51,631 nt of DNA, taken from NCBI GenBank assembly GCA_031279085.1, contig JAITJD010000004.1:1-51631 (forward strand), in the 5' to 3' direction. The DNA is from Rickettsiales bacterium. Its GTDB lineage: Bacteria; Pseudomonadota; Alphaproteobacteria; Rs-D84. Positions within the stretch are counted from its first letter, which is position 1, and every line of letters begins with the position of its first letter. A program made the translations under genes and the position numbers. Below the pieces are notes generated by a model. That model saw only the letters and a list, made by a program, of their open reading frames with translations. It ran no database searches and was not told the origin of the DNA. Positions 3,579 to 44,417 of this stretch are shown in pieces.

Positions 3579-5990
3579 ATGGCAGATAAATATACTGATT
3601 TTATCTTTGATTATGCGAAGAAATTCAGAATTCGTAATATGGAAAATGAGCATTTGTCGACACTTAAGAAAATGCGCGGCCCAGAGGTTCCGCCAGGCAG
3701 CGGAATCTACCCCGAAGATGTTCGTACAAAAAATCAGAAGGGTTGGAACGAGAATGCTGATTTGCCCGATGGAATGGCAAAGCTGGAAGAGGACCAATGG
3801 CAGGAATTATACGAAAGTTTTCAAAAAACATTCCGCAGTATGCATGCCAACCGCGAGTCTTTTGAAAACAATGCTGCGGCAATAAAATATCTTGATTCTT
3901 ATTACGGCCAAGGAAAACTTTTCTCTGGTTCCGTTATCACGCCATTTGGAATAGATGCCGAGGCAGAGATTAAAAGAGTCCGCGACTTTCTCAAAGAATT
4001 GAAAGACTCTGGTTCTTCTGGTTCTAAGGTGCTGATAGGTAATCTCATCAGAGAGAATGCCGGTTTCAAAAGCTGGGATGAACTTATATCGGCTATAAAC
4101 TCCGAAAAATATAACGAAGAAGATAAAGACAATACGCGCGGTAAGATTCGTAAGTTTATTTATTATTTAAGAAATAAAAAAAATGATCTTCTAAAAGAAA
4201 AAATAGACGACGGAGAAAATAATGACGATTATATCTCAAATCCCACTTTGCAGCAAAAACTTAAAGACATAAATTTTAACGTTATTGACTCCGGATTCGA
4301 ACAGGAAGAACCAAAAGCGACATCCCAACAAATTCAAGACTTTCAAGATGTTTACGATGTCGGGCTGTTGCAGCCGCTGATACTTAACGAGAAACTGCGC
4401 GGCGTCTTTAAAGAAAATAATGGCGGAGAAATCACCGCCCCGATAGAAAAAGCCATCGGTCAAACGGATTTTAAAAACAAAGAAAGCGCGGATTATGTCG
4501 CGGAAAGCGAAAAAGACAAACTGAATTCATGGCAGCAATTTACCGAAAATGTGAAGAAAAATGCCGACGATACGATACTGAAACTTCGAAATCGCGCTCT
4601 GCGGGATAAATATATGCTGCCCGCGACCAGCAAGCCAATTGCGGTCGATGCCTATTCCAAAGGATTCAATCCGAAAGACGGATTGGCGAAGTTTTTGGAA
4701 ATACTACCGAAACTGGAAGGAAAATACAAAGGAACAAATCCAGAGGTTGCCAAAGCTCTGAAATTCATGAAAGAAGCCTTGGAATATTGCAAAGATAAAA
4801 TGCCGAAAGCTTTTGAGGGGGCATTGAAAAACGGCGAACAGGGACTGGCCATAGATATGGCCATCGCGCGATACGGCATTCGGAATGATAAATCTGACAA
4901 TGAAATAAAAACCGCCTTTGAAGTCATATCGAAACTTCGCTGGGGGTATGCGACATCATCAAAACGTGACGCATTGTTCAAAGATAATTTGACGATTTTT
5001 AGCGACAAAGGGTTGTCTTGGAATAAACATGAAGGTCTGCAATTCATATCAAAAGCTTTCGACAAGACGATTCAATTTGGCGCGCGCGGGATTTTTGAAA
5101 TTGCGAATATGGGCGTGAATGCGGTGCGGCAACGGGGCAAATATTATAAACCAGGCGATCCGCGCGCCAGCCAGGGCGAAAACCCCGAAAAAGATCTTAT
5201 TAAAAAAAAGCAGAAGCAGGCAGAGGCGCGCCGCGATCAGATAAAACTGCCGGATGGATTTGACAAGCAGCAATATGAGGAGAATAAGAAGGAGCTGGAA
5301 CAAGAAAAGAGGGAACGGGAAGCAGAAAAACAAGAAAAGCTGTCAAATAAGGCATATAAGGAGCTGGTAGATGATATGAATCAAAAAATCGCCAAAAAAG
5401 ACGATTTGATTGAATACAAAAACAGAATGGATTATTACGATGATCTATTTCAAAAGGCGACTGATGCGGGTACAAAAACTCAGATAGACAGGGAAAGGGC
5501 TGAGCTAAAAGTAGAGTTGGCGCAAAAATATGATATATCGGATCAAAAACTTTATGAGGTTATCGAGAAGAATATAGAAGATTTGGGCAAGGAAATCGAT
5601 GCCATTGAAAATGATAATATGGTTGTGCAAACAACAAAGCAAGAAGTAGATAAACTGGACAAGAAAATAACCGATATCGATAAAAAGATAGAGCCATTTC
5701 AAACCGCATTGGCGGATAATGACAACATTGAAGCTTTGAATAAGCAGATAAATGGCTATGACGAAGAGCTGAGGACTTGGGACGATAAGCACAGGGACAG
5801 ATTTGAAAGCCTTATGGCGTTTCGTAATCTTGTGAATGGCCAGGGCGGATATGTCAAAGACAGCAAAGTCGAACTATTCTTACGCGGTCAGAAAAAGGTT
5901 CAGGAAAAATTTAACGCAAACAAGCAAGCGCTGATAGGGCAATATATGGGTCGATATTGGTCTGGCTCGAACGTTGGCATCGCCGCTTGA
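3579..5990 (+). CDS. Large charged coiled-coil protein, function unknown
   Basis: An 803-residue soluble-looking protein with no signal peptide and no membrane segment. I do not recognise the family. The first 500 residues are mixed and highly charged. A linker rich in Gly, Pro and basic residues (about 500-535) leads into a long coiled coil of Glu, Lys, Gln and Asp at about 535-735, and the protein ends in GRYWSGSNVGIAA. The start was taken at the ATG behind AAAAGGTG; an in-frame TTG at 3531 is less likely because it overlaps the promoter. It precedes a tail-fibre-like gene but no other phage gene is near. It could be a domesticated virion-type structural protein or a cytoskeletal or effector protein. 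Base composition is somewhat more AT-rich than its neighbours. Confidence 0.8.
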   Translation: MADKYTDFIFDYAKKFRIRNMENEHLSTLKKMRGPEVPPGSGIYPEDVRTKNQKGWNENADLPDGMAKLEEDQWQELYESFQKTFRSMHANRESFENNAAAIKYLDSYYGQGKLFSGSVITPFGIDAEAEIKRVRDFLKELKDSGSSGSKVLIGNLIRENAGFKSWDELISAINSEKYNEEDKDNTRGKIRKFIYYLRNKKNDLLKEKIDDGENNDDYISNPTLQQKLKDINFNVIDSGFEQEEPKATSQQIQDFQDVYDVGLLQPLILNEKLRGVFKENNGGEITAPIEKAIGQTDFKNKESADYVAESEKDKLNSWQQFTENVKKNADDTILKLRNRALRDKYMLPATSKPIAVDAYSKGFNPKDGLAKFLEILPKLEGKYKGTNPEVAKALKFMKEALEYCKDKMPKAFEGALKNGEQGLAIDMAIARYGIRNDKSDNEIKTAFEVISKLRWGYATSSKRDALFKDNLTIFSDKGLSWNKHEGLQFISKAFDKTIQFGARGIFEIANMGVNAVRQRGKYYKPGDPRASQGENPEKDLIKKKQKQAEARRDQIKLPDGFDKQQYEENKKELEQEKREREAEKQEKLSNKAYKELVDDMNQKIAKKDDLIEYKNRMDYYDDLFQKATDAGTKTQIDRERAELKVELAQKYDISDQKLYEVIEKNIEDLGKEIDAIENDNMVVQTTKQEVDKLDKKITDIDKKIEPFQTALADNDNIEALNKQINGYDEELRTWDDKHRDRFESLMAFRNLVNGQGGYVKDSKVELFLRGQKKVQEKFNANKQALIGQYMGRYWSGSNVGIAA

Positions 5991-43398: not shown

Positions 43399-44145
43399 CT
43401 AATAATAGCAATTGGAAGTGAATTCGTACGTGCCGTGCGAATCATTAAAATTATTCCCGGGGCCGATGAAGCATTTCTGAATGGAATCGTGATAATGAGC
43501 TTGATTGCCTTGTGTGGTTCCAGGTTCCGGGCATTGCGCGCAATATGAGCCGTAATAGTTAGAATATTCCTTGTATGTTCCATCAGGGCAAACATTGCAG
43601 GCGCAGCTTTTGCTATACAAATCGTCCATAGTCCATACGAAATTTCCGGTCAGGCCATAGCCTGGTTCGCAATCGCAAAAGAAAACAGATGAATAGATAG
43701 AACCCTCGGAAGAGGAAGCGTCAGCAATATAGAAGCTGGCGCTGTAAGTTATCGCACCGGGGACATAGGCTTCGTTATAAAGGCCGTTAAGGCCGTATAG
43801 TTGGACATTTTGGCAATAACCCAGCGATTGCGCGATATCGCTAGGCGAGCTGTTATAAGCTAATATCATGTCCAGTATATCCGGTATGCTTCGTATCAAA
43901 AAATCACACAAATTTCCCGGAAAATTAGCGCATAAGTCTGCGCAGTCTTGGCGGGTCTTGTCGCTGCATAGCGCGGCGAGGGTTTCTTCGTTCCAGGATA
44001 GAAGCGGCTGGGTATATAGCAGGCTAATTTGCGTTATTGCGTGTAGCATGGCCTTGCATTCTTGGTCATAAGCCGCCTGGATATTTCCTATCGATGTAAT
44101 GAATATTGAAAACGCGGCGATAAAAAGACGCGGATTTTTCATCAT
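43399..44145 (-). CDS. Secreted Cys-rich protein with C-terminal CYY motif
   Basis: A 248-residue exported protein with a signal peptide (to about GNIQAA near residue 24) and 15 or more cysteines. The last 20 residues, PGNNFNDSHGTYEFTSNCYY, match the tail of the protein at 19429-20040. The middle shows EGF-like CPDGTYKEY and CAQCPEPGT repeats, as in Cys-rich extracellular proteins. Function unknown; probably at the cell surface. Preceded by a long structured leader with a terminator-like hairpin, and by GGGGA as ribosome site. Confidence 0.78.
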   Translation of the reverse strand: MMKNPRLFIAAFSIFITSIGNIQAAYDQECKAMLHAITQISLLYTQPLLSWNEETLAALCSDKTRQDCADLCANFPGNLCDFLIRSIPDILDMILAYNSSPSDIAQSLGYCQNVQLYGLNGLYNEAYVPGAITYSASFYIADASSSEGSIYSSVFFCDCEPGYGLTGNFVWTMDDLYSKSCACNVCPDGTYKEYSNYYGSYCAQCPEPGTTQGNQAHYHDSIQKCFIGPGNNFNDSHGTYEFTSNCYY

Positions 44146-44170
44146 ATTATTCCCCTTTTTGTTTTGAATG

Positions 44171-44383
44171 AAAAACCATCAATGGAAATTGATGGTCGGG
44201 AAGTTAGAAAAATCAATCGTTGAATGATCTCGCAATTTTCGGACGAAGCCTGTTTTATAATCGCGACAACCCGACCATAGGTCGGGAATAACAGCGCGAG
44301 AGCGCCATTACCGGAACATGACGATGCGATGCACCGCAACGATTGGGATTTTCTAAGTCCCGAACTCGCTTCCTGCAAGTTCG
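44171..44383 (-). ncRNA. Candidate structured leader RNA or small RNA
   Basis: About 210 nt between a good promoter and the Cys-rich gene. On the minus strand: 5' hairpin CGAACT/AGTTCG (44361-44383); a long-range 9-bp pairing CAACGATTG (complement at 44337-44345) with CAATCGTTG (44214-44222); inside it the stems TAACAGCGC/GCGCCATTA (44289-44310) and CCCGACC-ATA-GGTCGGG (44270-44286); and at the 3' end ACCATCAA/TTGATGGT (44175-44196) followed by five Ts, a terminator. I do not recognise 6S, SRP, RNase P, tmRNA or a known riboswitch. It could be an attenuating leader or a free small RNA. Confidence 0.6.
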
Positions 44384-44388
44384 TTAAG

Positions 44389-44417
44389 ATTATAAGAAAA
44401 TATTGTTGGTTTTACAA
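44389..44417 (-). promoter_or_regulatory. Promoter of the structured RNA
   Basis: On the minus strand: TTGTAA (44412-44417), exactly 17 bp, TATAAT (44389-44394); the RNA would start near 44382. Confidence 0.7.

Follow-up and report, generated by a model that had tools for sequence, protein, structure and literature searches.

A multi-copy structured RNA leader related to sRNA-Xcc1 and probably working like phage C4 RNA in an order of gut Alphaproteobacteria

The leader RNA and its downstream gene

In this study, the window, namely the whole stretch of 51,631 nucleotides from contig JAITJD010000004.1 of a Rickettsiales bacterium (assembly GCA_031279085.1), was analysed around a structured RNA encoded on the minus strand. 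The RNA is the complement of about 44385-44171, with approximately 215 nt between the promoter and the end of the terminator, and is followed by an open reading frame. The features of the locus, in transcript order, are as follows:

44417-44389, minus: sigma-70-like promoter TTGTAA-17-TATAAT, 10/12 consensus matches
44362..44382, minus: P0, 5'-terminal hairpin; 5/7 pairs with two-sided changes, 84% of cells paired
44345..44361, minus: H1 hairpin GGGA[CUUAGAAAA]UCCC, its loop an a1-like segment; the loop pairs with a' (PK1), two pairs covary
44337..44345, minus: b1-like segment, 5' strand of P2 (the 9-bp pairing); 5/6 P2 pairs covary, own partner preferred
44322..44336, minus: P3 local hairpin; 5/6 pairs covary, 94% paired
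44288..44311, minus: P4 local hairpin; 7/8 pairs covary
44270..44286, minus: P5 hairpin CCCGACC-UAU-GGUCGGG, alternative to P6; 99.3% of cells paired
44186..44276, minus: 3' antisense domain P6-P7-P8, related to sRNA-Xcc1 / RF02221; full-length match at 31.7 bits, E 0.0007, cut-off 53
44270..44276, minus: P6 5' strand GGUCGGG; 6/7 P6 core pairs unbroken in all 25 aligned sequences
44231..44265, minus: P7 stem with conserved internal loop UAUAMAACAGG...CCGAAAA; 5/7 pairs covary
44212..44228, minus: P8 hairpin; 94% of P8 cells paired
44222-44215, minus: b' (CAACGAUU) in the P8 loop, 3' strand of P2; z -38 against its own b1
44204..44212, minus: a' strand UUUUUCUAA; pairs with the H1 loop (PK1) or, more weakly, may pair with the ribosome-binding site (RBS) region
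44194..44200, minus: P6 3' strand CCCGACC; its final bases are common to the terminator
44171..44197, minus: intrinsic terminator, 10-pair stem-loop (stem 44197-44174) then a U-run; 5/5 tested stem pairs covary
44150..44157, minus: Shine-Dalgarno (SD) region AAGGGGAA; partly complementary to the UUCCC adjoining a', -7.7 kcal/mol in the window copy
43399..44145, minus: downstream ORF, 248 aa, with a signal-peptide-like N-terminus and 15 Cys

A preliminary description, made from the letters of the window alone, had proposed a well-spaced promoter followed by an RNA of about 210 nt with strong local stems, a 9-bp long-range pairing and a terminator shortly before the next start codon, and each of these elements was recovered. 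The promoter boxes are present at the expected spacing. The folding energy of the window RNA was -84.3 kcal/mol relative to a shuffled mean of -56.2 (z -6.5), and none of 200 shuffles folded as well. The long-range pairing joins 44345-44337 (CAAUCGUUG) with 44222-44214 (CAACGAUUG) on the minus strand, and the ATG at 44145 lies 26 nt past the terminator. The 248-aa protein had no match in Pfam, NCBIfam or PDB sequences. The ORF list also contains a 78-aa frame within the window RNA, which was set aside because the conservation falls on the RNA pairs.

The description had further recognised no known RNA family. In the Rfam search of the window RNA, no family reached its gathering score, known riboswitch models gave no match, and, RF02221 apart, matches below threshold were no better than chance. 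RF02221 aligned over its full length (positions 1-87) at 31.7 bits here and exceeded its curated cut-off in two relatives, and the claim holds for the window copy at the gathering score and requires qualification for the family.

Covariation, copy number and downstream genes

Twenty-five copies were aligned, and covariation was counted as base pairs with changes on both sides, in comparison with shuffles. In this alignment, 89.6% of cells were paired and two-sided changes occurred in 37 base pairs relative to 24.4 in shuffles, with no shuffle of 500 as high. The signal was lost when the partner strands were slid, a control that somewhat favours the structure because the structure was drawn from the same 25 sequences. 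The paired arms thus covary in relatives, and the lack of conservation that the preliminary description had named as speaking against its proposal was not found.

Two helices of the pseudoknot type, PK1 and P2, were identified. PK1 is formed between the H1 loop and the strand after P8, with 97.5% of cells paired and with replacements of A-U by C-G and of G-C by A-U; P2 is formed between a 5' strand after H1 and a 3' strand in the P8 loop, with compensatory changes in five of the six pairs. P5 (CCCGAC with GGUCGGG) showed zero two-sided changes, so it is argued for by conservation rather than by covariation. P6, in which the same GGUCGGG pairs with the downstream CCCGACC, is about as conserved as P5. 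Given that both are conserved on one GGUCGGG strand, P5 and P6 are alternatives. When the 3' part was folded alone from GGUCGGG on, P6, P7 and P8 formed and the terminator was reduced to six pairs; when the whole leader was folded, P5 and the full terminator formed.

The window RNA is one member of a multi-copy family (up to 65 per genome) and not a single locus. A second copy with 73% identity is present in the window genome, and plain blastn gave matches in 70 of the 142 genomes of the family. A covariance model of 229 positions, R1, was built from the 25-copy alignment. R1 gave hits in each of the 59 genomes drawn from the family. In the order, which comprises relatives of Candidatus Enterousia with genomes near 1 Mb, 190 of 201 genomes had a hit, and in the class 23 of 289 sampled genomes did. 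At E up to 0.01, the window genome holds at least 16 copies; two further species have 32 and 50, and a genome of 1.1 Mb has 65. The named source records were Candidatus Enterousia and gut and termite-gut Alphaproteobacteria. Scores were split between strong copies, above about 85 bits, and weaker ones at about 25-75 bits; on this split, the lower-scoring copies may be a distinct subfamily. In four genomes (G064, G002, G035 and G000), the leaders of hits at 25-75 bits are shorter and their loops read differently, as in GGGGUGUGGAAACCCC with UUGUUUCCAACC.

The copies are scattered over the genomes, which ruled out an integron array. At one locus (L320, G639:C23:3533-3742 and 5268-5478), two near-identical units of RNA plus an 80-aa HTH gene lie 1.7 kb apart, and this pair is a recent whole-unit duplication. 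Two hits in the plasmid collection were records of 2.2 and 4.9 Mb (Neisseria gonorrhoeae and Aeromonas caviae), which look like chromosomes filed as plasmids. The Enterousia form was found neither in viral contigs (searched with one exact pattern) nor in phage records (searched by blastn).

One alternative is that the hairpins act as DNA and that the RNA-plus-gene unit is a mobile cassette or selfish element spreading by recombination. The high and variable copy number would agree with this, as would the most widespread integron cassette of Xanthomonas, in which sRNA-Xcc1 precedes symE and is co-oriented with it (PMC12444791). However, the copies are scattered rather than arrayed, and the conserved promoter, terminator and G-U-tolerant compensatory changes are those expected of a transcript; we regard this alternative as very unlikely.

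A gene usually follows the RNA immediately. Among 99 copies, most have a start codon about 15-25 nt past the end of the R1 model, and 77 retain the -10 box, compared with 13% of random windows. These observations, together with the covarying arms, bear out the part of the preliminary description that suggested a conserved structured RNA leader. A signal-peptide-like start, assigned by a simple hydrophobicity rule, was present in 80 of the 99 downstream proteins relative to 24% of background ORFs, and the median Cys content was 6.3% relative to 1.4%; both contrasts are approximate because a simple script was used to call the starts as well as the background ORFs. Pfam matches among 68 downstream proteins included glycosyltransferases, LicD, outer-membrane beta-barrel, HTH regulators, C5 DNA methylase, Stealth and RgpF, and the majority of the 68 had no Pfam match.

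Two side observations were made on these genes. At five loci (L041, L050, L052, L057 and L059) whose genes encode glycosyltransferase or LicD-like proteins, the stretch separating the RNA from the start codon contains an extra element, UGUUUGAACRUCCRCC (GGCGGCUGUUUGAACGUCCGCC in L041), about 130-165 nt beyond the switch strand; this element may resemble the ops/JUMPstart signals of polysaccharide operons. At L101 and L112 (1208-1397), the RNA copies precede XRE/Cro-type repressor genes, and these loci could be prophage remnants that hint at the origin of the copies.

Relationship to sRNA-Xcc1 and to C4 RNAs

The curated cut-off of RF02221 is 53 bits, and copies in two other species exceeded it (56.4 and 55.5 bits), with up to 27 matches per genome; therefore, the family as a whole is related to RF02221. 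The closing stem, P7 with its internal loop, P8 and the U-rich strand occur in the same order as in RF02221, and the helices covary. Across the phylum, RF02221 was detected in 62/398 genomes, of which 39 had matches above its cut-off. sRNA-Xcc1 was mapped as a discrete 88-nt RNA with ends determined by RACE (PMC2996969). Judging from the sequence around 30 RF02221 loci, the 88-nt RNA as published seems to be just the 3' portion of a leader. An upstream hairpin with a loop such as CCGAAAA is followed by a segment such as CAACAAG, and the RNA bears CUUGUUG...UUUUCGG; in L175, the RBS repeats CCGAAAAGGAGCAACAAG before the ATG. In these other Proteobacteria, the RF02221 RNA paired with its own RBS at -20.9 kcal/mol and with swapped RBSs at -15.2 (z -9.9; reversed control z -2.1), and pairing with its own 5' region gave z -10.8. 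The full set of complementary segments, a1b1, a'b' and a2b2, is clear in these leaders.

The genes after RF02221 RNAs include those for Bro-N, KilA-N, P22_AR_N, pRha and SymE proteins. Unlike the Enterousia form, the RF02221 form is present in both viral contigs (at least 92 with the exact core motif) and phage records. Phage Rac-SA53 has the RNA 37 nt ahead of 'ant', an Acinetobacter phage has it before a KilA-N gene, and in a Vibrio phage record it is already labelled sRNA-Xcc1. Examples of such phage or prophage leaders include loci L146-L175 and phage record KU052037 (L309). The window family and sRNA-Xcc1 have the same 3' domain stems end to end; in both, a co-oriented gene follows and the antisense strands are present. 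The window family differs in having the described 5' mimic domain with covarying pseudoknots and a terminator after the antisense domain; the genes behind it encode secreted proteins, whereas those behind RF02221 encode antirepressors or SymE.

The same arrangement is known from phage C4 systems. In phage P1, the annotated order is a1, b1, C4, a2, b2, icd. The leaders analysed here share with C4 and c4-a1b1 of P1/P7 (RF01695, RF03163) the order of promoter, 5' targets a1 and b1, antisense domain, RBS and gene. They also share a three-stem antisense domain closed by an acceptor-like helix, and antisense segments whose complements, a1 and b1, lie upstream on the same transcript. P1 and the RF02221 leaders both place a GCGGUAUUUUUGUG-type hairpin between b1 and the antisense domain, and RF02221 leaders in phages precede antirepressor genes as C4 does. 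In contrast, the core sequence is different, only a' takes part in RBS pairing in this order, a terminator sits between the antisense domain and the RBS, and the copies here are followed by genes for secreted proteins, glycosyltransferases and others and not by a phage antirepressor operon.

The Rfam C4, c4-a1b1 and isrK models gave no match on these loci (C4 and c4-a1b1 even at E 10), and RF01695 (cut-off 45 bits) gave none in the window genome. In the Rfam table consulted, RF02221 is assigned to no clan, and C4 and c4-a1b1 are both in CL00128. By the model test, the window RNA is not a C4 member, yet judged by the arrangement of its segments it appears to be built to work like a C4 leader. 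C4 RNA is trimmed by RNase P at GG, and its a' and b' contact the target and its RBS (PMC5320573). The GGUCGGG...CCCGACC helix followed by ACC-like bases is compatible, by analogy, with an RNase-P-type 5' end at GG. In Acinetobacter baumannii, C4-type copies were reported to be numerous on the chromosome, to vary in a specificity segment and, apparently, to be trimmed at a GG site (PMC5320573). The Group 1 C4-like sRNAs of that species resemble the family described here in copy number and variable segment; they differ in that they match Rfam C4 whereas the core here is RF02221-like, and the copies here are more numerous in a 1-Mb genome and precede secreted-protein genes. A literature search, conducted mostly outside subscription journals, found no publication naming sRNA-Xcc1 as C4-type, so the relationship may be noted elsewhere.

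Antisense pairing and the proposed mechanism

The pairing between segments was evaluated by comparing own partners with swapped partners, using permutation statistics that ignore descent. The antisense strand paired with its own a1b1 at -15.4 kcal/mol compared with -6.1 when swapped (z -41), and the own partner was the best of 98 in 64 cases. Among 14 sampled copies of the window genome, the b' loops were all different, and the own a1b1 was the best partner in 12. For the window copy, the fit to a1b1 was strong (-16.7) and that to the RBS was weak (-7.7). Over 86 copies, a' plus UUCCC paired with its own SD-AUG region at -10.4 kcal/mol compared with -8.5 when swapped (z -8.6); the reversed-strand control gave z -3.4, and composition therefore accounts for part of this signal. 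The value was z -7.0 when each distinct a' was counted once. The UUCCC extension was picked after the pattern had been seen in class-level copies, and the shorter a' gave z -5.0. For the whole switch strand against RBS regions, hardly any difference between own and swapped was obtained, in a comparison with short target windows that was dominated by P8. Pairing of b' with the RBS in this order was rejected, as b' showed no fit to its own RBS in the duplex test. Overall, a' seems to match the SD-to-AUG stretch of its own gene by a modest margin, evident across the family and weak in the window copy.

These pairings bear on a reading of the RNA as an independent trans-acting sRNA, as sRNA-Xcc1 has been annotated, in which nearly all transcripts would end at the terminator, other mRNAs would be controlled by way of a' and b', and the downstream gene would hardly be involved. 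Its own promoter and strong conserved terminator fit such a product, sRNA-Xcc1 itself is a discrete RNA, and a' is nearly constant in many copies, so shared targets are possible. Against this reading stand the constant placement, in nearly all copies, ahead of a start codon that has an SD, the strong gene-class bias and the better fit of a' to its own RBS than to the RBSs of other copies, and we consider it unlikely.

A ligand-binding riboswitch would combine a pseudoknotted aptamer with an attenuator, termination being set by a metabolite or ion through its stabilising effect on P6 or on the P2/PK1 core. The elaborate conserved pseudoknotted fold, the invariant loop letters (AUAMAACAGG, CC.AAAA), the P5/P6 exchange adjoining the terminator and the many copies before functionally related genes agree with this idea. 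However, the variable strands are copy-specific, as for antisense pairs and unlike a binding pocket, the related phage RNAs precede antirepressors and SymE rather than metabolic genes, and up to 65 copies in 1.1 Mb is extreme for a metabolite switch. We therefore hold a riboswitch to be quite unlikely.

The reading we favour, and think probable on the complementarity and arrangement of the segments, is a C4-type antisense leader that was amplified into a chromosomal regulon in this order. The leader would alternate between two folds. In the first, a1b1 would hold a'b', and P5 and the full terminator would form, yielding a short RNA and little mRNA. In the second, P6 would displace P5 and take bases of the terminator foot, and the C4-like domain would fold, such that the exchange of P5 for P6 would set the strength of the terminator. 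The a' strand of the C4-like domain could cover the RBS in cis, or do so in trans if the domain were set free; as in C4, this release may be made by RNase P, with 44276 as the new 5' end. Overall, genes for surface and secreted proteins would be silenced unless some signal shifts the balance. The assignment of the ON state to one of the two folds is the least certain step and, like the trigger, is a guess.

What is new here is the heavily amplified chromosomal form of what is probably C4-type leader logic; the logic itself is known from phage C4. An improbable extension is that the leaders form one network, in which a' and its targets are near-constant, b and b' are copy-specific, and RNAs set free at one locus act in trans to silence others. 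If such a network exists, it would amount to a genome-wide choice of secreted and surface proteins, and RNA-based surface variation would have arisen from a phage immunity device. On the favoured C4-type reading, sRNA-Xcc1, described from a plant pathogen as trans-acting, would be re-read as the 3' portion of an antisense leader resembling C4. The device would have been multiplied up to 65 times in 1.1 Mb in a genome-reduced order of gut bacteria and tied to secreted Cys-rich proteins and glycosyltransferases. The complementarity between the a and b segments would thereby offer a concrete rule, testable by mutation, for the control of surface proteins in these uncultured bacteria.
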